DNA from: Myxococcaceae bacterium
Lineage (GTDB): Bacteria; Myxococcota; Myxococcia; Myxococcales; Myxococcaceae
Assembly: GCA_022842905.1 (NCBI GenBank)
Contig: JALHOS010000014.1
Span: 1 to 42,336, forward strand
Direction of reading: 5' to 3'
DNA: 42,336 bases
Every line of letters begins with the position of its first letter. The first letter of the stretch is position 1. The position numbers and the translations under genes are program-made. Below are positions 12,097 through 30,822 of this stretch, one piece after another. Under the pieces are notes generated by a model that was given only the letters and a program-made list of their open reading frames with translations, was not told where the DNA came from and searched no databases.

Positions 12097-13109
12097 GCGC
12101 GAGCCTCAACCTTGAACTCTTCGAGTGACAGCCCCCGTGCGGACAACGCCGCCTGGAGCGCTTCACCCTGTTGTTCAATGAGCTTCAACACATCACGATC
12201 GGACCCGGAAAACACGGCTTTGATCTTGCCCTGGTGGCTCGACACCTTCACCGTCAGCCCGGACAGCACGTCGCTGCGCATGTCGATCTGAAACTCGGCG
12301 CGACCGAGCGCATTGGTGCCCACCCGGACCCGCTCGACGATCTTCTGCGCCAGCTCGTTGGCGATCTTCCTCAGGCGCTCCGAGCCGCTGACGTCCTTCT
12401 TCTGCGCAACCGGCACCGGCGCCATGAGCGCGGGGTTGAACCGGAAGCCAGGCGCACCCGCGCCGCCCTTCCCTTCGTCCTTGCCGCCGCCGCCGCCCTG
12501 CTGCCCGCCCTTGTCCGCGTCGGACTTCAGCTCCGAAGCGTCGCCCTTCCCTTCGGCCCCGGAGACGGCCTTGCCGGACTTGGCGGCCTCGCTCGCCTCC
12601 CGGCGCTCGTCGATCCGCTCGCGTCCGGCCTTCGCGTCGGCCTTGCGAGCCTCGGTGCTCGCGCCGGCGTGCTGGGCGTCGTTGCTGCGGCCAGCGGTGG
12701 CCTGGGAATCTCCCTGGTCCGCCAACAGCTTGAGCTTCTCGGCGTGCTGCCCTTCGGAGCGGGAGCCCTGGCGCAGCCGTTCGTCCAGGCCCTTCTGCCC
12801 TAGCCGGCCCTGAAACCCCTGTTGCTGGCGCTGGCTCTCGAGGCCGGCGTGCTCGGCGGCTTCCCCGGCCTGCGCCGAAGCGCTCTCCGCTTGCTCCAAC
12901 AAGGCGGCGATCGCCGAGCGCGCGTTCGATTCCTTGGCCGTCTGCTGCTGTTGCCCGGCGCGCTTCTCGTCCTTGGCCTGGCCCACGAGCTTGGAGAACA
13001 CGCCGTCCGCCTGGACGCGGTCCTTCTTCTTCGACTCGTCCAAGCGCCGCTGCTCTGCCGCCCGCGCCGCCTGCCGTGCCGCTTCACGATCATCTTCGAC
13101 CCGGCTCAT
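12093..13109 (-). CDS. sctP: SctP/FliK-like length-control protein with Flg_hook domain
   Basis: 338 aa. Residues 1-225 are low-complexity and charged or Gln/Gly-rich, as expected for a flexible molecular ruler. Residues ~260-338 match the FliK C-terminal (Flg_hook) domain: GRAEFQIDMRSDVLSGLTVK, then HQGKIKAVFSGSDRDVLKLI, then LSARGLSLEEFKV. In related systems this domain contacts SctU/FlhB to stop hook or needle growth. ATG at 13109, 7 bases after sctO; overlaps sctQ by 4 bases. A ruler-type protein would be unneeded in a system with no hook or needle. Confidence 0.85.
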   Translation of the reverse strand: MSRVEDDREAARQAARAAEQRRLDESKKKDRVQADGVFSKLVGQAKDEKRAGQQQQTAKESNARSAIAALLEQAESASAQAGEAAEHAGLESQRQQQGFQGRLGQKGLDERLRQGSRSEGQHAEKLKLLADQGDSQATAGRSNDAQHAGASTEARKADAKAGRERIDERREASEAAKSGKAVSGAEGKGDASELKSDADKGGQQGGGGGKDEGKGGAGAPGFRFNPALMAPVPVAQKKDVSGSERLRKIANELAQKIVERVRVGTNALGRAEFQIDMRSDVLSGLTVKVSSHQGKIKAVFSGSDRDVLKLIEQQGEALQAALSARGLSLEEFKVEARA

Positions 13110-13116
13110 GGCGCGC

Positions 13117-13635
13117 TCATTCCTTGCTCCCGCCGCCGTTCGCGGCCGCCGCCCGAGTGCGCTGCAGGTGGAGCGTGTTGCCGATCTCCTCCTGGTTCAG
13201 CTCCTCCTTCATCATGCGCTCCTTGCGCACTTCCTTCTTCCAAGTGTCCTTGTGCTTCTCGATCGCCTTCTTCTCCATGGCGGCGTTCGCCATCTCCTGC
13301 CGTCGCTGCTCCATGAGCTTCTCGGCCTGGAGCACGGCCTCTTTCTGCCGTTCGATGTCGAGGGCCTTCTGGGCTTCTTCGTCCTTGAGCCGGTTTTCGA
13401 AGCGGCCCATCTGCTGAAAGCCGTTGATGCCGCCGCCCTTGGCGCTGACCTCGACCAAGAACGCCTGCACCTTCGCCTTGCGCTCGGCCTTGGCCCGCTC
13501 GAGCGCGGCCTTCATCTCCTCGAGCTTCTTCTTCTCGGCGTCGTGGGCGCGGACCGCGGCCGAGAACGCCTCCTTGGCGGCGTCTTCCGCTTTGGTGCGA
13601 ATGTCGAGCAGCGCTTCGAGCCGGTACGGAGGCAT
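13117..13635 (-). CDS. sctO: Type III secretion stalk protein SctO (FliJ/YscO family)
   Basis: 172 aa, nearly all charged coiled coil (AEKKKLEEMKAALERAKAER, EKLMEQRRQEMANAAMEKKA), starting with YRLEALLDIRTKAEDAAKEA, the N-terminal pattern of FliJ/YscO. The family forms the central stalk in the ATPase ring and links it to SctV. ATG at 13635. Its place between sctN and sctP is the usual one. Confidence 0.92.
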   Translation of the reverse strand: MPPYRLEALLDIRTKAEDAAKEAFSAAVRAHDAEKKKLEEMKAALERAKAERKAKVQAFLVEVSAKGGGINGFQQMGRFENRLKDEEAQKALDIERQKEAVLQAEKLMEQRRQEMANAAMEKKAIEKHKDTWKKEVRKERMMKEELNQEEIGNTLHLQRTRAAAANGGGSKE

Positions 13636-13699
13636 ACGGTCGCCGCGAGTCTACCACCCTGCCCCACGGTCCGCGCAGCCCTTGCGCGCCCACACGGGC

Positions 13700-15022
13700 T
13701 CACGACGCGTCGGCGAAGAGGTCGATGAGCTGCTGGACGGTGGCGTCGAAGGGCGTGCTGTCGTGGGTGTCCTGCTTCAAGTAGTCGATGATCGACTCGT
13801 ACTTGTCGATCGCGTAGTCGGTGCGCGGGTCCGTGCCGTAGCTGTACGCGCCCAGCAAGATGAGATCGCGCTGCTTCTCGTACGTCGACAGCGTCTCGCG
13901 CAGCTTCCCGGCGGCCTTCTTGTGCTCGGGCGAGACGATCTGGCTCATCACACGAGACAGCGACGCGAGCACGTCCATCGCCGGCCACTGGTTTCGTTCG
14001 CCCAGCGCGCGGTTGAGAATGAAGTGGCCGTCCAAAATACCGCGGACCTCGTCGGCGATCGGCTCTTCCATGTCACCGCCGGCCACGAGGCACGTGTAGA
14101 TCGCCGTGCACTTGCCCTTCGCCGAGTTGCCCGTGCGCTCCAGCATGCGCGGGAGCATGGAGAACACCGACGGCGGGTAGCCTTGACGGGCCGGCGGCTC
14201 GCCGATCGCCAGGCCGATCTCACGCTGGGCGCGCGCCAAACGGGTCACCGTGTCGAGCATGAACAGCACGTTGCCGCCGCGCTCACGGAAGAACTCGGCG
14301 ATCGCCGTGGCCACGTAGCCCGCGCGCAGACGCACCAGCGACGGCTGGTCGGAGGTCGCGCACACCACCACCGAGCGCTTCATGCCTTCTTCGCCGAGCG
14401 CGTCTTCGATGAACTCCAAGACTTCGCGACCACGCTCGCCGATCAGCGCGATCACCGACATCTCCGCCGCGGTGTTCCGGGCGATCTGCCCCATGAGCGT
14501 GGACTTACCGACGCCGGAGCCGGCGAAGAGCCCAATGCGCTGGCCTTCGCCGACCGTCAAGAGCCCGTCGATGCAGCGCACGCCGAGCGGGAGCGGCCGG
14601 AGAATGCGCTGGCGGGTGAACGGATCCGGACAGTCGCGATCCACCGACCAGTCCTGCATGCCTTCGGTCGGCAGCGGCTTCCCGTCGATGGGCTCGCCCA
14701 GGCCGCTGAGCACGCGCCCCAGCAGCCCGTCGCCCACGGAGATCGTCAGCGGGCGGCCGGTGGGGATCACCTCGCTGTCGGGGCCGATGCCGGACAGCTC
14801 ACCCAACGGCATGAGCATGACCGTGTCGCCCTGGAAGCCGACGACCTCGGAGCGCACCTGCTGGTTGCCGCGGCGAATGAGGCAGACCTCGCCGACGCGC
14901 ACATTGGGCACGGCCGCTTTGATCACCAGCCCGGTCAGCTCGACGACGCGGCCGCGAATGCGCACCGTCTGCGCCGTCTTGACGAGCTCCTTGTACCGCC
15001 TCAGATCGACCGCGGCGCTCAC
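13700..15022 (-). CDS. sctN: Type III secretion ATPase SctN (FliI/YscN family)
   Basis: 440 aa, typical length. Walker A GSGVGKST at residues 168-175; the Walker B region is VLFMLDTVTR; the family block PPARQGYPPSVFSMLPRMLE is intact. The hexamer unfolds or releases chaperone-bound substrates at the export gate. The GTG start (15022) overlaps the sctL stop by 4 bases, so the two are translationally coupled. A 64-base gap separates it from sctO. Confidence 0.98.
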   Translation of the reverse strand: MSAAVDLRRYKELVKTAQTVRIRGRVVELTGLVIKAAVPNVRVGEVCLIRRGNQQVRSEVVGFQGDTVMLMPLGELSGIGPDSEVIPTGRPLTISVGDGLLGRVLSGLGEPIDGKPLPTEGMQDWSVDRDCPDPFTRQRILRPLPLGVRCIDGLLTVGEGQRIGLFAGSGVGKSTLMGQIARNTAAEMSVIALIGERGREVLEFIEDALGEEGMKRSVVVCATSDQPSLVRLRAGYVATAIAEFFRERGGNVLFMLDTVTRLARAQREIGLAIGEPPARQGYPPSVFSMLPRMLERTGNSAKGKCTAIYTCLVAGGDMEEPIADEVRGILDGHFILNRALGERNQWPAMDVLASLSRVMSQIVSPEHKKAAGKLRETLSTYEKQRDLILLGAYSYGTDPRTDYAIDKYESIIDYLKQDTHDSTPFDATVQQLIDLFADAS

Positions 15023-15729
15023 TTCGATTCCTTCTTCACGTTGTCCGGCTGCAGGAGCTGCTTGAGCATTTCGAACTGCGTCTTGAGCTGGCCGTCGATG
15101 ATGCCGTAGTCCGTTTGAATGATGCAGCCGCCCCGCTCGACCTCGGGGTCGTCACGCACGGCGATGTCGATCGCCCGGCCGATGAGCTCCATGAGCCGAG
15201 GCCGCTTGTCGCGCAGCAGCTTCCCGTCTTCCGGGCTGACGCGGATCGTCATGGCCTTGGCCGCGCGGGCCGACTCCATGGCGGTGGCGACGATCTCGAC
15301 GATCGCGTCGGGGTCCCGCTCCAGATCGCGCCCGATGATCTTCGCGGCGATCTTCAACGACAGGTCGATGATCTCGCTCTCGGTGCGCGCCAAGATGTCG
15401 CCGGCCTGGATCTTCGCCTTGGCGATCTCCTCGGCGGCCTTGGCTTGGGCTTCGGCTCTCGCGTCGTCGCGAGCGCGGGCGTAGACCTCGTCCCGCTTGG
15501 CCTCGGCCTCGGCGATGATGCGCTGCGCCTCGGCTTGAGCCTTCTCGACGATCTCCTGGGCTTTGGTTCGAGCGTCGTACTCCTCGGCGTTGACGACGCG
15601 CGGCCTCGCCGCCTTCTCAGGCGCTGCGGCGGCTGGCTTCTCCGGCGCCGGGGCTGGCTCCGGGGCGGGCAAGCTGTCGCCTTTGATGACCTTGCCGATG
15701 ACCCGAGCCGGCCGACGCTCCTCATCCAT
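15019..15729 (-). CDS. sctL: Type III secretion stator protein SctL (FliH family)
   Basis: 236 aa. A Pro/Ala-rich N-terminus (to ~45), a long Ala/Glu coiled coil (~50-115: AQEIVEKAQAEAQRIIAEAE), and a C-terminal FliH domain (~118-230: IIDLSLKIAAKIIGRDLERD, then GGCIIQTDYGIIDGQLKTQF). SctL binds the N-terminus of SctN and tethers it to the C-ring. ATG at 15729; 14 bases after the FliG-like gene. Confidence 0.95.
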   Translation of the reverse strand: MDEERRPARVIGKVIKGDSLPAPEPAPAPEKPAAAAPEKAARPRVVNAEEYDARTKAQEIVEKAQAEAQRIIAEAEAKRDEVYARARDDARAEAQAKAAEEIAKAKIQAGDILARTESEIIDLSLKIAAKIIGRDLERDPDAIVEIVATAMESARAAKAMTIRVSPEDGKLLRDKRPRLMELIGRAIDIAVRDDPEVERGGCIIQTDYGIIDGQLKTQFEMLKQLLQPDNVKKESK

Positions 15730-15743
15730 ACGCGCGGCCGAGC

Positions 15744-17087
15744 TTACTCGGAACCATCACCCGGTCCACGACGACCCCGCAGCACGGGCGATCGCGCGTT
15801 CGAGCCGGTGCCGGTGCGCACGCTCTGATTCTTGCGCCGAGGAATCGGCTGCGTCGCGGGCGAGGCCACGGCCTGTCGGTCCATGGGCCGCCCGTCGCGG
15901 AGAATGCGCCGACGCTCGCCGGTCTCCGTGCCTTGGACGGTGCCCGCGCCGGCAGGCTTCGGCCGCTGCGCACCACCACCCTGGCGCTGCGGCTCGCGCA
16001 CCGGAGGCGCCACCACCTGGCCGCCCGGCAAGCCGGGGACCTTGGGCAGCGCCTGGCGAGAGGCCTGCGACCGCAGCGCGGGCAGCACGCCCGACAGCAT
16101 GTTCTCGGAAGCCCCCAGCCGCGGCGACGGCTTGAGCGGCGGCGGCAGGCGAATGGGCCGGTCGAGCACCCCCTTCTGCGCCAGCCGCTCGAGCTGCTCG
16201 ACGATGTCCATGCGCCCGCCGTCGGCCTTCACCGGCCGGTGCTGCTCGTCGCGGAGCCACCGGGCCAAGAGCTTGCCCAAGTCCGAGCCCTGGTGCCGGT
16301 CCACCAGCCGCGTGGCGAACTCCGGCGACTGGGCGATCGCCGCGCGCATGACACGCTGCGCGCCGGCGCTGCGCATGCCCGTGGACGGGTTCTCGATCGC
16401 GCCGTGCATCTCCAGGCACAGCCGCGCGTCGTCCACGTTGAGCCGCTTGGCCTTCCCAGCTTCAGCGGCGCGGGTGGCGAGGTTGCGCTGGTCCGGCGGG
16501 AGCTTGCTCAGGAACTGATCCCGGTCGATCTCGATGAGCCCGGCCACGGCCGTGGCCAGCACACGCGCCCCCATGCGATCGATCACCGCGAGCAACTCCC
16601 GCTGCTGGAGCGTGATGACGTCGCTGAAGCGGAACACCCCGACCGGCGGCGCCTTCGCGCGGATCTGCTCTTCGAGCCGCGCCCGAATGATCGACTGAAT
16701 GTCGGGGCGAATGTCGGCGTCGCTGTCCGCCCGGTGGCCCGGCAGCGCCCGCCGCGTCGCGTCTGCCAGGTCGGAAGGAAGCGACCGGAGCACCACCTCG
16801 ATCAGCCCGGGCCGCTCGCCGCTCATCACCGCGGCCAGCTGCTCCGGCTCGGCGCTGCCCAGCTGCTTGCGCCGCTGCATGACCAGCCGCTTGATCTCCT
16901 GCGTGAGGAACGAGATCCGCTTGTCCCGCGGGATCTGCAGCAACATCGGCGCGCGGTACTTGAGCAGCTCCTCTTCGTCCGGCGGCAGGTGGCCGAAGCT
17001 CTCGACCGCGTCTTGGCCTCCCAGCGCCAAGCTCGTGAGCAGGAGCATCTGCTGCCGCTTGGTGAGTGACGCGAAGACCTGCTCCAT
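15744..17087 (-). CDS. FliG-like protein at the SctK position
   Basis: 447 aa, encoded between sctJ and sctL, where injectisomes have sctK and flagella have fliG. Residues ~80-120 match the FliG middle domain (LAAVMSGERPGLIEVVLRSL, cf. the EhPq...LP pattern). Residues ~150-210 match the second FliG armadillo block (VFRFSDVITLQQRELLAVID, then ATAVAGLIEIDRDQFLSKLP). Residues ~330-447 are a Pro/Gly/Arg-rich tail absent from FliG. It would connect the SctJ ring to the FliM/FliN-like SctQ. ATG at 17087; no clear Shine-Dalgarno. The FliG relation is weak but present in two blocks; a divergent SctK is the alternative. Confidence 0.7.
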   Translation of the reverse strand: MEQVFASLTKRQQMLLLTSLALGGQDAVESFGHLPPDEEELLKYRAPMLLQIPRDKRISFLTQEIKRLVMQRRKQLGSAEPEQLAAVMSGERPGLIEVVLRSLPSDLADATRRALPGHRADSDADIRPDIQSIIRARLEEQIRAKAPPVGVFRFSDVITLQQRELLAVIDRMGARVLATAVAGLIEIDRDQFLSKLPPDQRNLATRAAEAGKAKRLNVDDARLCLEMHGAIENPSTGMRSAGAQRVMRAAIAQSPEFATRLVDRHQGSDLGKLLARWLRDEQHRPVKADGGRMDIVEQLERLAQKGVLDRPIRLPPPLKPSPRLGASENMLSGVLPALRSQASRQALPKVPGLPGGQVVAPPVREPQRQGGGAQRPKPAGAGTVQGTETGERRRILRDGRPMDRQAVASPATQPIPRRKNQSVRTGTGSNARSPVLRGRRGPGDGSE

Positions 17088-17138
17088 GGGTGCGCTCGAG
17101 ACCTGTTCGCGAAGCTTGGCTCAAGCCTCGCGCCCGCG

Positions 17139-17933
17139 TCACCCCTCCGGTGGGGGGGACGGCCGGGGCTTCTTCGAGCCGCCCGGCCGCCGGAGCGCCA
17201 GGAACGCCGTCACACCGGCCATGGCCAAGAAGAGCACCGCGAAGATCGCCAGCATCGCCTTGAGCGTGCCCGCGCTCGCCTTGTCCACGCGAATGCCGAG
17301 GATGCGGACCATGCGCTCTTCTTCGGGATCCTCGATGACGAGCAGCTGCTCCGTCATGAGCACCTTGACGTTCTCGGGCTTGAGCTCGGGCACCGCACGC
17401 GAGACGAACTCGCGAATGTCGTCGGCGCCCAGCGGAGGCTTCCCGTCGACCTTCAAGTACGTGATCAGCACCGACGCCGACGGCATGGGCTTCTTGTCCG
17501 GCTGGGTCAGATCGTTCACCTCGGGGATCATCACGATCGTGCGCGCGCCGAGAATGCCGGGGACGCGGTTGAGCGCGTTGCTCACCTCACCGCCGAGCGC
17601 CTCGAGGAACATGGCGCGCTCTTCGGTCTGGGTGGGGATCATCCCCTTCGTTTGCTTGAAGATCCCCAGGCCTTCGGCGTGCGGCCGGGGCAGCGAGTGC
17701 TTGCGCAACAGCGCGGCGGCCCGCTCGACGTCACCCTTGGGCACGGCGATGACGTAGCGCGCGTCCTTGCCTTCACCTTCGCGCAGCTTCGTCGTGTCGA
17801 TCTGGGCCTTGGTGAGGAGGACGTAGATGTCGTTCGCGTCCTCTTCGTTCAGGTCGTGGTGCAGGTTGACCGTACAGGCCGACAGCGCCAAGACCACGAA
17901 CGCGGCGGCGTATTGAGGCAGTCGAAGGCGCAT
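17139..17933 (-). CDS. sctJ: Type III secretion inner-membrane ring lipoprotein SctJ (YscJ/PrgK family)
   Basis: 264 aa. Lipoprotein signal with lipobox LSAC, modified Cys at residue 20, followed by the YscJ start VNLHHDLNEEDANDIYVLLT. The two ring-building domains are present (~20-80 and ~110-195, with ERAMFLEALGGEVSNALNRV and GARTIVMIPEVND), and a C-terminal membrane helix lies at ~228-250. ATG at 17933, 35 bases past the hairpin following sctI; no separate promoter was found. Confidence 0.97.
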   Translation of the reverse strand: MRLRLPQYAAAFVVLALSACTVNLHHDLNEEDANDIYVLLTKAQIDTTKLREGEGKDARYVIAVPKGDVERAAALLRKHSLPRPHAEGLGIFKQTKGMIPTQTEERAMFLEALGGEVSNALNRVPGILGARTIVMIPEVNDLTQPDKKPMPSASVLITYLKVDGKPPLGADDIREFVSRAVPELKPENVKVLMTEQLLVIEDPEEERMVRILGIRVDKASAGTLKAMLAIFAVLFLAMAGVTAFLALRRPGGSKKPRPSPPPEG

Positions 17934-17960
17934 GCGGAGCGACGCACTGTAGTCGAAGGA

Positions 17961-17993
17961 AAACGAAAAGGGCGGCCAACCTCAGGCCGCCCT
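17961..17993 (-). terminator. Rho-independent terminator/attenuator after sctI
   Basis: AGGGCGGCC (17969-17977) pairs with GGCCGCCCT (17985-17993) across a 7-base loop. On the minus strand it is followed by TTTTCGTTTT. It lies between sctI and sctJ, 30 bases after the sctI stop, so partial read-through would set rod:ring expression ratios. Confidence 0.8.
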
Positions 17994-18023
17994 CCGTGAG
18001 CACTTCTTCGTCGACGCTGCTCT

Positions 18024-18557
18024 CTAGACCTGCGTCTTGAGCGTGTCCTTGAGGCCCGACGTGGCCTTCTCGACGACCTTGCCTGTCAGCTCGAGCTCCT
18101 GCGTGTACTTGTACATGCCGGCCTGCAGCTGGAGCAGCTCGGCGTTGGAGAAGTTCTTCCCGTTGAAGGCGCCGTTGACGAGCTTGTCGATCGCCACCTG
18201 GCCCTTCTCCATGCTCGCCATCATGCCCATGATCATCGAGTTGGACTTGGTGACTTCGCCCTTCTGCGCGACGGGATCGAGCGCCTTGGTCGTGGCGTTC
18301 TTGTCGAGCTTGGCCAGGGTCGACTTCTCAGTCTTGCCCGCCTGCTCCACCGCGTGGGTCGTCGCGGTCTTCTGAACCTGCGGCGCCTGCTGCACCTTGT
18401 TCGCGGCCTGAACTTGGCCGGCGACGTCAGTCCCCTTCGCCTTGAGGGCCTGGTCGAACTTCGACGCCCCCTCCTTAACCTGAGGTTGTGCGCCCTGGGA
18501 TGGCAGCTTCTGCTGCGCGATCTGAGCTGCTGAGAGTCCTGCCAGCGGTCCCGCCAT
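18024..18557 (-). CDS. sctI: Type III secretion inner rod protein SctI (YscI/PrgJ family)
   Basis: 177 aa from the ATG at 18557, chosen because GGAGG lies 7 bases upstream. The N-terminal ~110 residues are Gln/Lys/Ala-rich and longer than in YscI. The C-terminal helix is typical of the YscI/HrpB family: LLQLQAGMYKYTQELELTGK, then VVEKATSGLKDTLKTQV up to the last residue. SctI polymerises as the rod/adapter under the needle. The first 83 bases overlap the end of the sigma-factor gene in another frame. It has its own sigma-28-like promoter candidate and a downstream hairpin. It directly precedes sctJ, as in Yersinia-type loci. Confidence 0.9.
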   Translation of the reverse strand: MAGPLAGLSAAQIAQQKLPSQGAQPQVKEGASKFDQALKAKGTDVAGQVQAANKVQQAPQVQKTATTHAVEQAGKTEKSTLAKLDKNATTKALDPVAQKGEVTKSNSMIMGMMASMEKGQVAIDKLVNGAFNGKNFSNAELLQLQAGMYKYTQELELTGKVVEKATSGLKDTLKTQV

Positions 18558-19245
18558 GGTCCGACCTCCTGGGTGCACCGGAATTATCGTCGTCCTCCTC
18601 GAGGAGTTTCTTCAGACTTTCCACGGCCCTAGCGTGCAGCCGGCTCGCCCACGACTTGGACTGTCCGATCTCGGCCCCCGCTTCCTCCAAGGTCTTGCTC
18701 TGAAAGTAGTAGCCCTCGAGAAGTTTTCGCTCTTTTTCTGGGAGCTTCTCTATCGCGGAGCGCACCCGCTTCTTGAGCTGCTCGAGCTGCAGCCGCTCGT
18801 CGGCAGGCAGCGCTTCGTCCGACAGCTGGAGGCCTTCGGTGCCCTCCAGGCTCGTCGCGAACACCATGGCCAGGCCGCTGACAGCTGTGGACACTTCGCG
18901 CACATCGTCTTCGAGCTTGGCCCCGCCTCCACCCGAGCGGTCCGCCAGGTTGCCCAGGTACGAGTTGGCACGATCAGCCGCCGAGCCCGCTCCCTTGAGC
19001 GCCCCCATCTTCCGCAGGCCGTCGTAGATGGCGCCCTTGATCCGGTAGTGGGCGAAGGTGAGGAAGTTGGCGCCGACCTTCGAGTCGAAGCGCTCGGCGG
19101 CCTCGAGCAGGCCGATCTGGCCCCACGCGACCAGCTCGTCCATGTCGAACTGGCCGTTGAACTGCTTGCGGACCTGGGCCGCGAGCGAACGTACGTACGC
19201 TCCGTACTTCTCCAGGATCTGCGGTTTGGACTCACCGAGAGGCAC
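18475..19245 (-). CDS. FliA/WhiG-type (sigma-28 family) sigma factor
   Basis: 256 aa. Region 2 spans ~10-80 (DMDELVAWGQIGLLEAAERF, then FLTFAHYRIKGAIYDGLRKM, the classic FliA motif). Region 4 spans ~157-215 (AIEKLPEKERKLLEGYYFQS, then LEEAGAEIGQSKSWASRLHA with the helix-turn-helix). The last ~36 residues (after LLEEDDD) are polar and correspond to DNA overlapping sctI. GTG start at 19245, 9 bases after 19255-19662. It is the likely activator of the three sigma-28-like promoters in this locus, including one inside its own 3' end. Confidence 0.93.
   Translation of the reverse strand: MPLGESKPQILEKYGAYVRSLAAQVRKQFNGQFDMDELVAWGQIGLLEAAERFDSKVGANFLTFAHYRIKGAIYDGLRKMGALKGAGSAADRANSYLGNLADRSGGGGAKLEDDVREVSTAVSGLAMVFATSLEGTEGLQLSDEALPADERLQLEQLKKRVRSAIEKLPEKERKLLEGYYFQSKTLEEAGAEIGQSKSWASRLHARAVESLKKLLEEDDDNSGAPRRSDHGGTAGRTLSSSDRAAEAAIPGRTTSG
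18584..18610 (-). promoter_or_regulatory. Sigma-28-like promoter candidate for sctI
   Basis: Minus strand: GAAA (18610-18607), 15-base spacer, GACGATAA (18591-18584): 3 of 4 and 7 of 8 matches to the FliA consensus TAAA-N15-GCCGATAA. It lies inside the 3' end of the sigma-factor gene, 26 bases before the sctI ATG. Confidence 0.65.
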
Positions 19246-20935: not shown

Positions 20936-21202
20936 TCACTTCGACCCTTTGCGTTGAACTTCAATCTGTTCGCGCACTTGGAGCAGGTGGGCGAGCAGCG
21001 CCTCGGTGCGCTCAACCGCCTTCATCGCCTTCTTTCCGTGCTCCGCGCGGGGCCCCTTGAGGCCGTCGAGGGCCTCGCGAATCGGGTTGAGCAGCGTGGC
21101 GATGCTGTCGGCCGACGCGCCTTCGATGAACTGCTCGAGGTTTGGATACTCGGGCTGCGGCGGCGGGGGTGGCGGGGGCGGCTGAGTGCTGGTGGGCGCC
21201 AT
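20936..21202 (-). CDS. Small helical protein, first gene of T3S locus
   Basis: 88 aa from the ATG at 21202 (GGAG upstream; a TTG four codons earlier is less likely). A run of prolines at ~8-16 is followed by EYPNLEQFIEGASADSIATL, and a charged C-terminal helix (ALLAHLLQVREQIEVQRKGS). No signal peptide or membrane segment. Its family is not recognised; a small T3S chaperone or regulator would fit the position at the head of the locus. Confidence 0.7.
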   Translation of the reverse strand: MAPTSTQPPPPPPPPQPEYPNLEQFIEGASADSIATLLNPIREALDGLKGPRAEHGKKAMKAVERTEALLAHLLQVREQIEVQRKGSK

Positions 21203-21353: not shown

Positions 21354-22112
21354 ATGGCGAACTCGATCGTGTCGATCCGCGAAGTCGTGAAGGAGTACCA
21401 CCTGGGCCAGACGGTGGTGCCGGCGCTGCGCGGAGTGAACCTGGAAGTCGAGCGCGGCGAGTTTCTGTCGATCGCCGGGCCGTCGGGCAGCGGCAAGACG
21501 ACCTTGCTCAACCTGATCGGCTGCGTCGACACCGCGACGCGGGGCATCGTCGAGGTCGCCGGCAAGGACACCGCCAAGCTGTCGGAGCGCGCGCTGACGA
21601 GCCTGCGCCTGGACACCATCGGCTTCATCTTCCAGTCCTTCAACTTGGTGTCGGTGCTCACCGTCTTTCAAAACGTGGAGTTCCCCCTGCTCCTGCAGAA
21701 CCGCTTGGGCGCGAACGAGCGCAAGGCGCGGGTGATGCAACTGCTCGAGCAGGTCGGGCTGGCCACGCACGCCAAGCACCGGCCCAACGAACTGTCCGGT
21801 GGGCAGCGACAGCGCGTGGCCGTGGCGCGCGCGCTGGTGACGGAGCCGCTGATCGTGCTGGCCGACGAGCCGACGGCCAACCTCGACTCGAAGACGGGGC
21901 AGGCGATCATCGACCTGATGCGCTCGCTCAACCAGCAGAAGGGCACGACGTTCATCTTCAGCACGCACGACTTCAAGGTGATGGAGCACGCGAACGCGGT
22001 CGTTCGGCTGGCTGACGGGAAGGTGCTCGCGCGGGAAACGCCGCAGGAAGCCGTGCAGCACGTGCTCGGTCGCCGCGAAGCCGCCGCGGAAGCCTCCGTG
22101 GGCGCGCCGTGA
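21354..22112 (+). CDS. ABC transporter ATP-binding protein (LolD/MacB type)
   Basis: 252 aa from the ATG at 21354; the frame extends further upstream but without family similarity. Walker A GPSGSGKTT (42-50), Q-loop Q94, signature LSGGQ (147-151), Walker B LIVLADE with D171-E172, switch H205. The IGCVDTATRG-type region and EFLSIAGPSG are typical of the LolD/MacB/FtsE group, which powers mechanotransmission rather than substrate channels. The stop overlaps the next gene by 4 bases (GTGA). First gene of a five-gene envelope transport operon. Confidence 0.95.
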   Translation: MANSIVSIREVVKEYHLGQTVVPALRGVNLEVERGEFLSIAGPSGSGKTTLLNLIGCVDTATRGIVEVAGKDTAKLSERALTSLRLDTIGFIFQSFNLVSVLTVFQNVEFPLLLQNRLGANERKARVMQLLEQVGLATHAKHRPNELSGGQRQRVAVARALVTEPLIVLADEPTANLDSKTGQAIIDLMRSLNQQKGTTFIFSTHDFKVMEHANAVVRLADGKVLARETPQEAVQHVLGRREAAAEASVGAP

Positions 22113-24361
22113 AGACGTTCCTCCTCATCGGCTCGGTGGTTCTCGGGGGGCTGGTCGGCCTCCTCGCGCTGGCGCTGGGGCTCACGCTGCTGGCGGGCCT
22201 CATCGCCTTCGTGGTCATGGGGGTCCGCAGCCCGAGCAAGCTGACCATGCTCCTGCGCATGGCCTGGGCCAACCTGCTCGCCAGCCGAATCAACCTCGTC
22301 ATCGGCGGGCTGATCGCGGGCGGTACGGTGGTGTTCGTGGTGCTCGGCTCGCTGGTGAGCAGCCTCAACGACAGCATGGCCCGCTCCGTCGTGGGCAGCG
22401 TGGCGGGGAACATTCAGATCTACTCGGCCAAGTCGAAGGACGACGTCGCGCTCTACGGGAACATGGGCGGCGAGCCGGACCTGACGGCCATGACGACGTT
22501 CCCGGCGATCAAAGAAGCGCTCGAGAAGCACCCCAACGTGAAGACGGTGGTGCCCATGGGCGTGTCCGGCGCGGTGATCACGCCCGGCAACGTGGTGGAC
22601 CGTGCGCTCGAGCGGCTGCGCGCGCTCTACCGCGCCAAACAAGGCGACGTGGTCCCAGCGCTCAAGGACGTCCCCGCTGACGAGCTGGCGCAGCGGATCG
22701 ACGCCCAGAAGAGCCACGTGCGGCAGATCATCAAGGTGCTCAACGCCGACGCGCAGAAGGCGGCGGCGATCTTGGCGGACAAGGCGCTGGAGCCCGAGGT
22801 CGCGCAGGCGCTGGCCCGCGTGTCCTCGGACGAGTTCTGGACCGGCTTCGACGCCGATCCGTTCGACGCGCTCGAGTTCCTCGAGAACAACATCGCCCCG
22901 CAGGTCACCGACGCGCAGATGTTGTTCCTGCGCTACCTGGGCACGGACCTCGACCGGTTCCAGGACTCCTTCGACCGCATGGAGATCATCGACGGCGCCC
23001 GGGTGCCGAACGGCCAGCGGGGCTTCTTGATCGCCAAGTTCCTCTACGAAGAGCAAATGAAGCTGAAGAACGCGCGGCGGCTCGACAAGATCAACACCGC
23101 GCGCACGCTCAACGAGCGGAAGATCGCCACCGACGAAGAGCTGCAGCGCTTCGTCAAGGAGAACCGGTCGCAGACCCGCGACATCGTCCTCCAGCTCGAC
23201 GCGATCAAGACGAAGACCGCGGTGGAGCTGCTGCAAGCTGAGCTGGGCGTAGCCGAGACGGACCTGAGCGCCTTGCTCACCCGCTTCTTCGACATGACCG
23301 ACGAGACGTTCGACCGGCGGTACGCGTTCTTCTACGAGAAGCTCGCGCCGCTGGTGGAGCTGTACCGAGTGCGGGTGGGCGACACGCTGACGATCAAGGC
23401 GTTCAGCCGCGGCGGGGCGATCCAGTCGGTCAACGTGAAGGTGTACGGGACGTTCGCCTTCAAGGGGCTCGAGAAGTCCCCGCTGGCCGGCGCGACGAGC
23501 CTGATGGACCTGATGAGCTTCCGCGATCTCTACGGGTACCTCACCGCGGACAAGCTCGAGGAGCTCAAGGAGATCAAACAGGCCACCGGCGCGAAGGAGA
23601 TCTCCCGCGACAACGCGGAGGCCGAGCTGTTCGGTGGCGACAGCCAGGCGACCATCGTCGCCGAGGCGACGCCGGGCATCATCGACGCCGACAAGGAGCT
23701 GACCGGCGCGGCGCGCAAGCTGCGCAACGAAGATCTGATCCGCCGCGTGTACACGAGCGAGGAGATCAACTCTGGGGTGGTGCTGAACGCCGCGGTGGTG
23801 CTCAAGGACCCGTCGAAGACCGCGCGCACGCTCGAGGAGCTGCGTGAGTTGTCCGACCGCGAAGGACTGGGGCTCAAGGCGGTCTCGTGGCAGCAGGCCG
23901 CCGGACTGCTCGGCCAGATCATCACCGGCTTCTCGATCATCCTCCTGCTGTCGGTGCTGGTGATTTTCTTCGTGGCTGGGATCGTCATCAACAACGCGAT
24001 GATGATGGCGACCATGCAGCGCACGGCCATGATCGGCACGCTCCGGGCGATCGGGGCGCAGCGCGCGCTGGTGCTGGGCATGGTGCTGCTCGAAGCGGTG
24101 ACCTTGGGCTTCGTCTTCGGCTTGGGGGGCATCGCGCTGGGCGCGCTGGTGGTGCAGCTCTTCCACGCGATCGGGATCCCCGCGTGGAACGACTACGCGT
24201 ACTTCTTCTTCTCGGGGCCGAAGCTGCGGCCGGACCTGTCGCCGACGAACTTGGGCGTGGCGATCGGCATCATCTTCGGCGTCACGTACGTGGCCACGCT
24301 GGTGCCGGCCTTCATCGCCACCCGCGTCTCACCTTTGCGCGCCATGCAGGCGGACACATGA
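22109..24361 (+). CDS. FtsX/MacB-type ABC permease with enlarged periplasmic region
   Basis: 750 aa, about twice the usual LolC/E size. Two N-terminal hydrophobic segments (~3-37 and ~60-85), a periplasmic part of more than 500 residues (~90-600) with coiled-coil-like stretches (LERLRALYRAKQGDVVPALK, DRFQDSFDRMEIIDG), and the three C-terminal FtsX helices (~600-632, ~655-690, ~715-740). GTG start at 22109 overlapping the ATPase gene; the stop overlaps the second permease (ATGA). It probably forms a heterodimer with 24358-25671. The expanded domain likely contacts the LolA-like carrier. Confidence 0.9.
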   Translation: MKTFLLIGSVVLGGLVGLLALALGLTLLAGLIAFVVMGVRSPSKLTMLLRMAWANLLASRINLVIGGLIAGGTVVFVVLGSLVSSLNDSMARSVVGSVAGNIQIYSAKSKDDVALYGNMGGEPDLTAMTTFPAIKEALEKHPNVKTVVPMGVSGAVITPGNVVDRALERLRALYRAKQGDVVPALKDVPADELAQRIDAQKSHVRQIIKVLNADAQKAAAILADKALEPEVAQALARVSSDEFWTGFDADPFDALEFLENNIAPQVTDAQMLFLRYLGTDLDRFQDSFDRMEIIDGARVPNGQRGFLIAKFLYEEQMKLKNARRLDKINTARTLNERKIATDEELQRFVKENRSQTRDIVLQLDAIKTKTAVELLQAELGVAETDLSALLTRFFDMTDETFDRRYAFFYEKLAPLVELYRVRVGDTLTIKAFSRGGAIQSVNVKVYGTFAFKGLEKSPLAGATSLMDLMSFRDLYGYLTADKLEELKEIKQATGAKEISRDNAEAELFGGDSQATIVAEATPGIIDADKELTGAARKLRNEDLIRRVYTSEEINSGVVLNAAVVLKDPSKTARTLEELRELSDREGLGLKAVSWQQAAGLLGQIITGFSIILLLSVLVIFFVAGIVINNAMMMATMQRTAMIGTLRAIGAQRALVLGMVLLEAVTLGFVFGLGGIALGALVVQLFHAIGIPAWNDYAYFFFSGPKLRPDLSPTNLGVAIGIIFGVTYVATLVPAFIATRVSPLRAMQADT

Positions 24362-25671
24362 ACGTCTTCAGTCCCATGGTTTGGCTGTTGGCCTTCCGCT
24401 CGCTGTTGCAGCACCGGCTCTTCACGTCGGTGCTCGCGGCGGCGATCGCCTTCGTCACCGCGAGCCTCGTCGCCGTCACCGGCATCAGCAACGGCATGCG
24501 GCAGACGCTGCTCGTCTCGGCCACGACGATGATGAGCGGGCACGTGAACGTGGCGGGCTTCTACAAGTCGTCGGCCAGCTCGTCGGCGCCGGTCGTGACC
24601 GGGTACAAGCAGCTGCGCGAGCTCGTCACCCAGGAGCTGCCGGAGCTCGACTACATGGTCCAGCGAGGCCGAGGCTGGGCCAAGCTCATCTCCGACACGG
24701 GGTCGATCCAGGTCGGCATCGGCGGCATCGACATCGAGCGGGAGCCGGGCTTCCGCAAGGTGGTCATTCTCAAGGACGGCACGCTGGACGGGCTGCGGCA
24801 GCCGGACGGGGTGCTGCTGTTCGAAGAGCAGGCCAACAAGCTGGGCGTGAAGGTCGGCGACCGGCTGACCTACGTCGCGTCGACCTTCAAGGGCACCAAC
24901 AACACGCTCGACGTCACCGTGGTCGCGATCGCCACCAACATCGGCATGCTCAGCAGCTGGAACACCTTCATCAACGATCAGGGCCTGCGGCGGCTGTACC
25001 AGCTCAACGACGAGACGACCGGCGCGCTGCAGGTGTACCTCAAGGACATCACCCAGGTGAACGCGGTGGCCGAGCGGCTGCGCAAGGTGTTGGGCGCGCG
25101 CGGCTACGAGCTGCTCGACGCCAACCCGGTCGCGTTCTGGCAGAAGTTCGACGCCGTCAACCGCGAGAGCTGGACCGGGCAGAAGCTGGACATCACCACC
25201 TGGGAAGACGAGACGAGCTTCGTCAAGTGGTTCATCACGCTGTTCACGCTGCTCGCGTCGCTGGTGACCTTCTTGCTCGTAGTCGTCATCGGCGTCGGGA
25301 TCATGAACGTCATGTGGATCACGATCCGCGAGCGCACTCGGGAGATCGGCACGCTGCGGGCGGTGGGCATGCAGCGCAGCAGCGTGCTGTCCATGTTCGT
25401 GACCGAAGGCTTCTTGCTGGGCCTGATCGGTACGGTGGCCGGCGGGATCCTGGGGCTGGTGCTGTCGGCCTTGCTCAACTCGGCGCAGCTGGTGCTGCCG
25501 CGCGGCCTCCAGTTCATCTTCCTGTCCGAGAAGCTGGTGGTCACGCCGAGCGCCGGCTGGTTCGTCTTCGCGATCGTCTTCATCACGACGACGATCACGC
25601 TGGTCTCTTTGGTGCCGAGCTGGCTGGCCGCACGCATGAAGCCCGTCACTGCGATGTCTCACGTGGGGTAA
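24358..25671 (+). CDS. FtsX/MacB-type ABC permease
   Basis: 437 aa from the ATG at 24358, which overlaps the previous stop (ATGA). N-terminal helix ~20-42 (FTSVLAAAIAFVTASLVAVT), MacB-like periplasmic domain ~45-285, and C-terminal FtsX helices at ~290-322, ~350-378 and ~400-426, with the family motif REIGTLRAVGMQRSSVLSMF after the first of them. Together with the ATPase and first permease it forms a LolCDE-like complex in the inner membrane. Confidence 0.94.
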   Translation: MNVFSPMVWLLAFRSLLQHRLFTSVLAAAIAFVTASLVAVTGISNGMRQTLLVSATTMMSGHVNVAGFYKSSASSSAPVVTGYKQLRELVTQELPELDYMVQRGRGWAKLISDTGSIQVGIGGIDIEREPGFRKVVILKDGTLDGLRQPDGVLLFEEQANKLGVKVGDRLTYVASTFKGTNNTLDVTVVAIATNIGMLSSWNTFINDQGLRRLYQLNDETTGALQVYLKDITQVNAVAERLRKVLGARGYELLDANPVAFWQKFDAVNRESWTGQKLDITTWEDETSFVKWFITLFTLLASLVTFLLVVVIGVGIMNVMWITIRERTREIGTLRAVGMQRSSVLSMFVTEGFLLGLIGTVAGGILGLVLSALLNSAQLVLPRGLQFIFLSEKLVVTPSAGWFVFAIVFITTTITLVSLVPSWLAARMKPVTAMSHVG

Positions 25672-25678
25672 CGACACA

Positions 25679-26455
25679 ATGAAACGAACTGCGATCGCGC
25701 TGTTGCTGACCCTGACCTTCCCGCTGACCGCGGCGGCCGCCGAGCTGTCCGCGGCGGACATGCTCAAGATCCTCGCGGAGATCGACGACCGCCAGCGCAA
25801 CGGCGGCGACTACAAGGCCCTGTGCTACCTGGAGCAGAAGGAAAAGGACAAGGCCGACATCGTCCGCGAGCTGATCGTCTTCCGCCGCGACACCGACGAC
25901 AAGCTGATGCTCCTGTTCACCAAGCCCAAGTCCGAAGAGGGCAAGGGCTACCTGCGGCTCGACAAGAACCTGTGGCTGTACGATCCGAACACCGGCAAGT
26001 GGGATCGGTCCACTGAGCGGGAGCGGATCGGCGGCACCAACTCCCGCCGCAGCGACTTCGACGAGTCGCGCCTGGCCGAAGAGTACGTGCCCACGTTCGA
26101 CGGTGAGGAGAAGCTGGGCCGCTACGAAGCGCAGGTGATGACGCTCAAGGTGAAGGAAGGCATCGACGTCGCGGCGCCCGTCATCAAGATGTGGGTCGAC
26201 AAGGCCACGCACAACGTCCTCAAGCGGCAGGAGTTCGCCCTGTCCGGCCGGCTGACGCGCACGGCGCTCTACCCGCGTTGGCAGAAGATGTTCAGCGAGT
26301 CGAAGAAGGCCGACGTCTGGTTCCCCGGCGAGATCCGGATCTTCGACGAAGTCGAGAAGTCCAACTCGACGCTGGTGCTCTTCAAGTCGGTGGACCTGGC
26401 TGCGCTCGAGGCGAACATGTTCACCAAGGCCTGGCTCGAGAGCAAAAGCCGATGA
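25679..26455 (+). CDS. Periplasmic LolA-like outer-membrane lipoprotein-sorting protein
   Basis: 258 aa. Signal peptide 1-20 (ALLLTLTFPLTAAAA). The body shows the LolA-like half-barrel pattern: DMLKILAEIDDRQRNGG near the start, LIVFRRDTDDKLMLLFTKPK, KGYLRLDKNLWLYDPNTGKW, and a later strand region ALYPRWQKMF. This family is often encoded with MacB-type permeases and is thought to carry lipid or lipoprotein across the periplasm. 7 bases after the permease gene; the stop overlaps the barrel gene (ATGA). Confidence 0.9.
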   Translation: MKRTAIALLLTLTFPLTAAAAELSAADMLKILAEIDDRQRNGGDYKALCYLEQKEKDKADIVRELIVFRRDTDDKLMLLFTKPKSEEGKGYLRLDKNLWLYDPNTGKWDRSTERERIGGTNSRRSDFDESRLAEEYVPTFDGEEKLGRYEAQVMTLKVKEGIDVAAPVIKMWVDKATHNVLKRQEFALSGRLTRTALYPRWQKMFSESKKADVWFPGEIRIFDEVEKSNSTLVLFKSVDLAALEANMFTKAWLESKSR

Positions 26456-28134
26456 GCCGGTGGGCCTGCGTCGTCGCGGCGATCGTGGCGCTCGGTGGCC
26501 CCGCAGCGCAGGCGCAGGATCGGCCGAGCGAGGCGGATCTCTTCGGCGGACCCGCTGACGGCTCCGACGGCGGCGCACCGAGCGACGCCGGCAGCGCGGT
26601 GGCGGTCGACCGACCCAGCGAGGCGGATCTGTTCGGAGGGTCGGACACGTCTGCTTCGGACGCCGGGTCGTTCTCGAGCCCTTCCCTGCTCCCGCCGGAC
26701 CGCGACACGGCCCAGCTGAGCGGCCCCGCGGCGCAGAGCAAGTTCGACACCGACGAAGTGAAGTCCGACGCGCTGAAGATCGGCGCGAACCTGCTCATGA
26801 CGGGCCAAGTGTTCGCGCGGGAGAACATCGCCTTCAAGGACCAGTCGTTCTCGGCGCCCTTCGTGCTCGACACCTTCATGGACGGGCGGCCGAACGATCG
26901 GCTGCGGGCGTTCGGCGTGGCGCGCCTCCAGTTCGACCCGACTCGGCCTCTGTCCACGGGGGCGGCCAGCACCAGCACCGCGACGGCGACGGCGGGGACG
27001 CCCACCATCGGCCTCACCAACACCGGCAGCATCAACCCCAACGTGCTGCTCGATCAGCTCTGGCTGCGCTTCGACATCGCGCGGCGGGTGTACTTCACGA
27101 TCGGCCGCCAGAAGGTGCGCTGGGGCACCGCGCGCATTTGGTTCCCGACGGACTTCCTCAACAGCCAGCCGCGCGACGCGCTGAACCCGTTCGACGTGCG
27201 CCTCGGCGTGAACATGGTGAAGGTGCACGTGCCGATCGAGTCCCTCGGCTGGAACTTCTACGCGTACGGGATCCTCGACAACATCGCGCCGGGGGCCGCG
27301 GGGCTCACGCTGGAGCGGCTCGCAGGCGCGGTCCGCGGAGAGTTCGTGCTGGGGCCGGCGGAGCTGGGCCTGTCCGGCATTTGGCAGGCCGGGCGGCGGC
27401 CTCGCTACGCGGTGGATCTGTCGTCGGCGCTCGGTCCGTTCGACGTGTACGGGGAGGTCGCGCTGCGCGACGCCCGCGACTTCCTCAAGTACCGCTTCCC
27501 GACGGACACCACCGTCGAGAACTACCTGCTCAAGGCGTTCAACGGGGAGATCGAGGCGTACCGCCCACAAGGCGTCACCGCGCAGGTGTCGGGCGGCGTG
27601 TCCTTCCAGTTCAACTACACCGACAACAACTCGATGGTGCTGGCGGCGGAGTACTTCTTCAACCCCATGGGCTACGGGTCGACGCTCGAGTACCTGATCG
27701 ACACGTCCATGCCGCTGTTCCGCTCGGCCTTGCCGGGCGCGGCGGACCCCGGCCAGGTGGACCCGATCCAGCGAGTGCCGCTCTACCAGGGCAAACACAG
27801 CCTCGCGCTCATCGTCGCCGCGCCGGGCCTGCCACAGCTGCCGTGGATCTCGCTGACCGCAAGCACGATCATCAGCTTCATGGACCCGTCGGGCCTCACG
27901 CGCCTCGACGCGACGTTCCGCGTGCTGCAGTTCCTCAACGTGTCGGTGTTCGGCGCGGTGTTCTACGGCCAGACCGGCGGCGAGCTGCGCTTCCGGCTGC
28001 CGGCCGACGCGATCGCCGATCAGATCACCCCGTTCCTGCCCGCCGACCAACGTGGCCCGCTGCGCGTGGGCCTCCGGCAAGCCGACGCGCCGCCGATCCT
28101 CCAGGCGGGCGTGCTGCTCCGGCTGTCGATCTGA
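26452..28134 (+). CDS. Outer-membrane beta-barrel protein with N-terminal 11-residue repeat
   Basis: 560 aa from the ATG at 26452 (overlap with the previous stop). Signal peptide ~1-22. The mature N-terminus carries two exact copies of DRPSEADLFGG (23-33 and 53-63). From ~105 onward there are alternating strands with aromatic girdles (LLDQLWLRFDIARRVYFTIG, RQKVRWGTARIWFPTDFL), and the protein ends in LLRLSI. The RQKVRWG stretch recalls alginate-export/DUF1302-type porins. It is the predicted outer-membrane end of the ABC-LolA pathway. Exact family and substrate are unknown. Confidence 0.85.
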   Translation: MSRWACVVAAIVALGGPAAQAQDRPSEADLFGGPADGSDGGAPSDAGSAVAVDRPSEADLFGGSDTSASDAGSFSSPSLLPPDRDTAQLSGPAAQSKFDTDEVKSDALKIGANLLMTGQVFARENIAFKDQSFSAPFVLDTFMDGRPNDRLRAFGVARLQFDPTRPLSTGAASTSTATATAGTPTIGLTNTGSINPNVLLDQLWLRFDIARRVYFTIGRQKVRWGTARIWFPTDFLNSQPRDALNPFDVRLGVNMVKVHVPIESLGWNFYAYGILDNIAPGAAGLTLERLAGAVRGEFVLGPAELGLSGIWQAGRRPRYAVDLSSALGPFDVYGEVALRDARDFLKYRFPTDTTVENYLLKAFNGEIEAYRPQGVTAQVSGGVSFQFNYTDNNSMVLAAEYFFNPMGYGSTLEYLIDTSMPLFRSALPGAADPGQVDPIQRVPLYQGKHSLALIVAAPGLPQLPWISLTASTIISFMDPSGLTRLDATFRVLQFLNVSVFGAVFYGQTGGELRFRLPADAIADQITPFLPADQRGPLRVGLRQADAPPILQAGVLLRLSI

Positions 28135-28150: not shown

Positions 28151-29049
28151 TCACGGAGGCGGCGCGACCTTCCACCGCCGGTGCAGCCACAGCCACTGCT
28201 CCGGGCACCGCCGGACGTGGGCCTCGAGGGCGGCCGTCAGCTGCGCCACGTGCCGCCGGCAGCGCTCCCGCGGGTCCGGGCCGTCAGGCACGGGGAACGG
28301 CCCTTCGACGTGCATGACCAGGCCGTCTGCCCGGCGCTCGGCCAGCACCAGGTACACCGGCACCTCGGAGCGCAGGGCCACCATGGACAGCGCCGGCGTC
28401 GTGCTCACCAGCCGCCCGAAGAAGGGCACGAAGACGCCGTCCTTCGCCGGCAGCACCTGATCGACCAGCTGCACGACGGTGCGGCCGCGCTCGAGGGCGG
28501 TGAGCATGCCGCGCACCGCGCCGCGCTGGAGGATCAGCTCGACCCCCGCACGCTGCCGGTTCTTGACGACCCACGCGTTGAAGGCCCCGGCCAGCGGGCG
28601 CACGACGGCGCTGAAGACGTGCCCACGGCGCGCCATGAGCTCCGCGAAGAGCTCCCAGCTCCCGAAGTGCGCCGACGCGATGAGGGCGGGCTTGCCGGCA
28701 GCGAAGCGCTGGTCGAGGCCGCGCCAGTCGGGCACCTCGACGCGACGGGACAGCTCCACGTCGGGGATGAGATCGCTCGTCACCGCCTCGAGCGCGGCGC
28801 GGGCGAGGTTGTCGTACGCCGCCCGGGCGATCGCGCGGCGCCGCGCGTCCGACTCCTGCGGGAAGGCCGCGCGCAGGTTGTCCAGCGCCACGCGCCGGCG
28901 AATCCTCAAGAACCACGCGAGCGCGCCGAAGCCTCGGGCCAGCCGCAGCCGCAGCCGCTCGGGCAGCGCGCGCACCGCCGTCAGCAGCGCGCCGACGACG
29001 AGCTGCGCCAGCGGGCCTCCGGGGGTGATCGCCGGCTTGGGCGGCGCCG

Positions 29050-29053
<4 letters not shown>
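28151..29053 (-). CDS. LpxL/LpxM/HtrB-family lysophospholipid acyltransferase
   Basis: 300 aa from the ATG at 29053, which overlaps the kinase stop (ATGA). The catalytic HX4E motif is intact: H129-F-G-S-W-E134 (ASAHFGSWE). Further family blocks: AAYDNLARAALEAV before it, and QWLWLHRRWK near the end. The family adds secondary acyl chains to lipid A or acylates related inner-membrane lipids. Coupling with a Ser/Thr kinase is unusual and may be regulatory. Convergent with the barrel gene. Confidence 0.92.

Positions 29054-30822
<1,769 letters not shown>

Follow-up and report, generated by a model that had tools for sequence, protein, structure and literature searches.

MacAB-TolC is built from a fused ATPase-permease, the MacA adaptor and TolC, and the Lol system of E. 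coli (LolCDE-LolA-LolB) includes two FtsX-type permeases, a separate ATPase and a carrier of the LolA superfamily. Three more systems surfaced as analogues in our search of the open-licence literature. In AmeABCD of Castellaniella defragrans, a LolA-superfamily protein and a DUF1302 barrel accompany an RND pump, and deletion of the system lowers monoterpene tolerance (available excerpts of PMC6394551). ApeLMN, which consists of a LolA-like carrier, an RND pump and a LolB-like part, has been proposed to insert aryl-polyene lipids into the outer membrane (excerpts of PMC8253772), and for the type VII ABC system YbbAP-TesA the proposed role is to pull hydrophobic compounds out of the inner membrane (excerpts of PMC12646458). 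No account of the gene combination reported here was found in that literature, and the excerpts of PMC6627406 hold nothing on these genes. For most lipids and natural products, it is an open question how amphiphilic molecules get through the periplasm and the outer membrane.

The combination lies in a stretch of 42,336 nucleotides from a Myxococcaceae bacterium (contig JALHOS010000014.1 of assembly GCA_022842905.1), called the window below, where five genes occupy positions 21354-28134 (Table 1). The initial annotation had described them as an ABC-LolA-barrel operon with three overlaps of 4 bases and one gap of 7, and the reading frames and Pfam matches agree: the ATPase and PERM1, PERM1 and PERM2, and carrier and barrel genes each overlap by 4 bases, and 7 bases separate PERM2 from the carrier gene. 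The start of PERM1, and with it the first overlap, is uncertain, since the frames of 25 out of 27 relatives, which have 690-735 residues and start no more than 16 bases from the ATPase stop, have no room for the roughly 42 N-terminal residues (22109-22234, hydrophobic) that the call from GTG 22109 adds. If real, this extension would contribute one more membrane helix and alter the topology of the protein. The PERM1 and barrel alignments (A3 and A4) consist of segments matched by tblastn and are uninformative on N-terminal extensions, which were judged from whole frames.

Table 1. Positions of the operon genes and of two features within them, numbered along the window.
Feature	Position	Strand	Details
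ABC ATPase (LolD/MacB/DevA type)	21354..22112	+	252 aa; Pfam ABC_tran 1.3e-31; TIGR02211 LolD 224.7 bits, cut-off 307.75
PERM1, large FtsX-type permease	22109..24361	+	750 aa as called, GTG start; PF02687 3.3e-12; conserved part from near 22235
PERM1 predicted periplasmic helical insertion	22589..23380	+	residues ~161-424; from model secondary structure against LolC/E alignments
PERM2, normal-size FtsX/MacB-type permease	24358..25671	+	437 aa; PF02687 9.8e-18; MacB_PCD 9.4e-7; TIGR02212 lolCE 82.4 bits, cut-off 362.45
LolA-like periplasmic carrier	25679..26455	+	258 aa; PF17131 4.4e-32, 111.6 bits, cut-off (gathering score) 30; PDB 3buu 3.6e-22
Outer-membrane beta-barrel	26452..28134	+	560 aa, 18 predicted strands; model pLDDT 81, pTM 0.77
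Barrel N-terminal tail, predicted disordered, two RPSEADLFGG motifs	26521..26643	+	pLDDT ~33-54; motif kept in relatives' tails

Our best explanation, to which we give a probability of about 55%, is that the operon encodes one type VII ABC trans-envelope exporter of an amphiphilic small molecule or lipid, which would leave the inner membrane by way of the LolA-like carrier and then the barrel; the direction of transport, the formation of a complex and the nature of the cargo are what we infer here. The enlarged domain of PERM1 may shape the docking of the substrate or of the carrier, the LolA-like protein would shield the hydrophobic part of the cargo across the periplasm, and the barrel would receive the cargo in LolB's place and pass it to the surface or to the outer leaflet, its ExxLFG tail perhaps recruiting partners. 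Such an exporter would be of a known general kind in a new combination, with a type VII ABC motor joined to a carrier and a barrel, undescribed as far as the literature was searched. If this is true, the route would be powered by ATP, use a LolA-like carrier and have an outer-membrane gate of its own, as against the RND-driven versions in print, and it would offer a way into studying how myxobacterial natural products are exported.

The inner-membrane genes place the system in the type VII ABC family, with PF02687 above its cut-off in both permeases, MacB_PCD in PERM2 and ABC_tran in the ATPase; by Pfam they encode FtsX permeases together with an ABC ATPase, and not the RND (HAE3) pump of AmeABCD-type systems. 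The AlphaFold2 model of PERM1 (mean pLDDT 86) predicts four transmembrane helices with the extracytoplasmic domain between the first and the second, the arrangement of type VII permeases. A periplasmic domain of about 500 residues had been proposed for this protein from the sequence, and the model bears this out, placing exactly 500 residues between the TM1 helix (60-99) and the TM2 helix (600-637). Its closest structures are LolE (Z 24.5 over 389 residues, rmsd 5.9) and LolC (Z 23.4 over 374 residues, rmsd 3.5), followed by other type VII permeases that include the heme exporter HrtB and MacB (5nik_J, Z 19.4). The LolC and LolE matches align only some 374-390 residues of PERM1, and the unmatched part is mostly the helical insertion of Table 1. 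PERM1 is accordingly predicted to have a LolC/LolE-like fold to which a helical block, some 260 residues long and absent from ordinary LolC and LolE, has been added. The mean pairwise identity of alignment columns is 0.40 in this insertion as against 0.43-0.46 in the flanking core, so that its conservation comes close to that of the core. MacAB-TolC, with which the operon shares the type VII ABC fold, was considered as a counterpart and rejected, as the operon ATPase is separate and the other four genes have no adaptor or TolC family match in Pfam.

The carrier belongs to PF17131, and its family profile, when compared with the PDB, finds 3buu of the LolA superfamily and, more weakly, 3bk5, 4z48 and 9tp6; judged by eye, its N-terminus resembles a Sec signal peptide. 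Together with the two FtsX-type permeases, the separate ATPase, whose nearest models are DevA and LolD, and a PERM1 fold nearest to LolE and LolC, this superfamily membership is what the operon has in common with Lol. These likenesses could also be read as the signs of a system for the export of surface lipoproteins, in which the ABC part would release some of the lipoproteins for the LolA-like protein to carry, and the barrel, replacing LolB, would flip or thread them to the surface. We regard this, the chief alternative to our reading, as possible but doubtful. The Lol equivalog models stay below their cut-offs for the ATPase and PERM2 (Table 1) and likewise for PERM1 (lolCE 35.8 bits against 362.45), and the carrier has no match to LolA proper (PF03548 or TIGR00547), Pfam returning PF17131 and a chance-level Kelch hit and NCBIfam no family. 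The operon also differs from Lol in having a barrel and no LolB gene, in the 500-residue periplasmic domain of one permease, and in that the canonical LolA lies elsewhere in the genome, as does the best LolCE-like gene (on contig C366, below the family cut-off in the split form it has there). A further point against lipoproteins is that paralogues of the permeases, one group of them with a carrier and a barrel, sit in nonribosomal peptide synthetase (NRPS) clusters, as described below. A plain Lol system was rejected on the missed family cut-offs. Delivery to or across the outer membrane, as first proposed for this operon, is retained in our reading, whereas the emphasis on Lol-style lipoprotein transport is unsupported because every Lol-specific family test missed its cut-off.

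The barrel of the window has no Pfam match. Its model is an 18-stranded barrel of the OprD/Occ or AlgE type, with fold matches to OprD/Occ porins of up to Z 23.8 (OccAB1) and to the alginate exporter AlgE at Z 22.0; by sequence it stands outside both families, and its family profile finds no sequence match at all in the PDB up to E 1. DUF1302 (PF06980) is matched by 5 of the 23 alignment members (best 5.5e-8), the window protein itself being without a match. Conservation is highest at residues ~200-252, where the motifs GRQxVxWG and PTDFL occur. The N-terminal tail carries ExxLFG or ExxMFG in 58 of 71 relatives, with 1.13 occurrences per tail as against 0.003 in shuffled sequences; some of the 13 relatives that have neither motif have short tails.

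As OprD/Occ proteins are uptake porins and give the best fold matches, the system might be thought to work inwards, with the barrel admitting hydrophobic nutrients or returning lipids, the carrier ferrying them across the periplasm and the ABC part taking them up. However, AlgE matches the barrel nearly as well, so that the fold does not give the direction of transport; published type VII ABC systems act outward or as levers (see also the excerpts of PMC12646458), and the NRPS-linked paralogues suggest export. We therefore consider uptake or retrograde transport unlikely.

Among the described analogues, AmeABCD acts on hydrophobic compounds and likewise has a LolA-superfamily periplasmic protein co-encoded with an outer-membrane barrel and an inner-membrane pump, but according to the excerpts its motor is an HAE3 RND protein, its carrier is of the DUF1329 type and it includes a COG4447 protein, whereas the operon has an ABC motor and a PF17131 carrier. 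Its barrel is a DUF1302 protein, a family that the operon barrel reaches only through the few relatives mentioned above. ApeLMN, as the excerpts describe it, is similar in that a LolA-like carrier works with an inner-membrane pump in a proposed delivery of a lipid-linked metabolite to the outer membrane; its motor is again RND, and its end point is a LolB-like DUF3261 protein where the operon ends in a barrel. In YbbAP-TesA the partner of the type VII ABC part is, on the same partial basis, a hydrolase and not a carrier and barrel.

The operon is a real, conserved unit. In a carrier-family scan of named genomes, 80 loci were kept from 218 relatives found. All five genes are present at 61 of these, most of the remaining 19 lying on short contigs. 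Where a locus has room on both sides (52 cases), the five genes stand in the same order on one strand in 50. Of the two that differ, L070 has no permeases between its ATPase and carrier genes, and L143 has no barrel; a short-contig locus, L080, is also without permeases. In the assembly that holds L070 (G017) the operon retains ATPase, carrier and barrel, and the only close permease pair is on another contig. We also surveyed 117 Myxococcota genomes (requested completeness of at least 85%), calling genes present at E values of at most 1e-20 for the carrier, 1e-60 for PERM1 and 1e-15 for the barrel. The carrier was found in 72 genomes, PERM1 in 73 and the barrel in 75; all three occur together in 72 genomes and none in 42, and only three genomes are discordant, G082 with barrel and PERM1 and G025 and G051 with a barrel-like match only. 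This 72/42/3 pattern is one of joint gain and loss, to which, the genomes being related, we attach no probability. The complete set is short and occurs widely in Myxococcales, the copy of Myxococcus xanthus being locus L110, and has been lost as a block in some genera. In genus g39 the system is dispensable, because 11 of the 13 sampled genomes lack all three genes and the other two have all three. A chance gene neighbourhood is ruled out by the ordered loci and by the phylum-wide pattern.

The initial annotation had suggested a search for co-conservation, and the genes are indeed almost never found apart. It had also raised the possibility that the barrel is an unrelated porin; in that case the barrel would merely share the operon and only the four inner genes would cooperate. 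The porin-like fold would agree with this, as would L143, a roomy locus that has no barrel. But the barrel is kept at 50 of the 52 roomy loci and is lost together with the other genes across the 117 genomes, and in the NRPS cluster of the Myxococcus type a barrel paralogue is found along with that of the carrier, so that the case of an unrelated porin seems to us very improbable. The objection had a point as regards the OprD/AlgE-like fold, yet it fails as worded on a gene that is locked to the carrier.

An indication of the cargo comes from the paralogues. Myxococcus-type genomes contain a second set of PERM1, PERM2 and carrier (the carrier about 35% identical), preceded by a 1322-residue AMP-binding/KR/carrier-protein enzyme and followed by a convergent NRPS frame of 5711 residues, on the far side of which lies a barrel paralogue. 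In genome G022 this 5711-residue frame is seen between the carrier and barrel paralogues (L157, 10562-12562; L156, 8446 onward). In genus g15 a separate permease pair flanks a CmlA-type hydroxylase and a short-chain dehydrogenase beside another NRPS, with no carrier or barrel match within 16 kb. Over the 145 loci examined, condensation domains occur in L054-L057, L156-L159, L163 and L164. As for a chance level, some 4-8% of G022 is within 6-10 kb of a condensation domain, an estimate for which 61 of the 73 domains were listed and the remaining 12 entered as an upper bound. The permease tree requires at least two origins of NRPS-linked pairs, one of them on long branches; the Myxococcus-type paralogues are long branches, which makes their placement unsure.

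Other permease paralogues are not NRPS-linked, namely those of G068 and those of the C302 type. The latter form a clade of permease pairs from G017 (contig C95, L153), from C302 (L160) and from L161 and L162, which have an extra PERM1 insertion and no ATPase, carrier or barrel match at the locus; the pair on C302 is an additional one of the source genome, and that on C95 is the only close pair that G017 retains. No ATPase match was found at any of the paralogous permease loci, whether NRPS-linked or C302-type, and because these pairs are without an ATPase of their own, we infer that the conserved ATPase can serve several permease pairs in trans.

Since permease paralogues sit in NRPS gene clusters, a small amphiphile is the favoured cargo, and we prefer the export of a small molecule or lipid to that of lipoproteins. 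One point against this preferred reading is that the conserved copy has no biosynthetic gene as a constant neighbour: an NRPS condensation domain is found at 0 of its 109 loci (L025-L053 and L065-L144, among which the locus of a single genome sometimes appears twice), and only 7 of the 52 with room downstream have an LpxL-type acyltransferase in the vicinity. Also against it stand the unsure placement of the Myxococcus-type paralogues, the second NRPS-linked pair with no carrier or barrel match close by, the paralogues that are not NRPS-linked, and the operon barrel's want of a Pfam match together with the weak profile matches given below. A more speculative extension of this reading is that the system forms a modular exporter across the phylum: paralogous permease pairs would plug into a shared ATPase-carrier-barrel backbone with different amphiphilic cargoes, the conserved copy exporting an envelope lipid of a housekeeping kind and the recruited copies nonribosomal peptides.

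The source genome has three PF17131 genes and one canonical LolA, a PF03548 protein on contig C12. On the same contig (L059, 4852-7249) a PF17131 carrier has as neighbours the only DUF1302 gene of the genome and an MJ1255/VC2487-type glycosyltransferase; no pump was found adjacent to this pair, and the canonical LolA is about 6 kb away. Profile comparison with hhalign gave weak matches between the operon barrel family and this DUF1302 gene (probability 1.5%, E 0.033) and between the operon carrier family and this carrier (5.2%, E 0.0074). Contig C175 (L060, 6154-11491) holds a second ABC-LolA-barrel series in the order two permeases, carrier, barrel and ATPase, and L061-L064 contain series that resemble it, with weak matches. 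The C175 permeases are of normal size, and a methyltransferase/TPR gene lies behind the series.

Upstream of the operon, the minus strand at 10552-19245 carries type III secretion-like genes (FliM/FliN C-terminal domain, FliG_C, YscJ/FliF and a sigma factor). A needleless type III system, T3SS*, has been described in M. xanthus as mxan_2434-2464 (excerpts of PMC12075869); the block in the window may correspond to it, and on the speculative modular reading the exporter, which in Myxococcaceae lies beside this cluster, may serve predation. A small upstream gene of the block, at 20936, is kept at 29 of the 63 loci that have enough sequence upstream of the ATPase and is missing from more distant ones, so we take the link to be lineage-specific and not an indication of function. 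On the other side, the minus-strand gene at 28151-29086, convergent with the operon, encodes an LpxL/HtrB-type lipid A acyltransferase, and that at 29050-30822, also on the minus strand, a serine/threonine kinase that weakly matches a zinc ribbon at its N-terminus and matches TPRs at its C-terminus.
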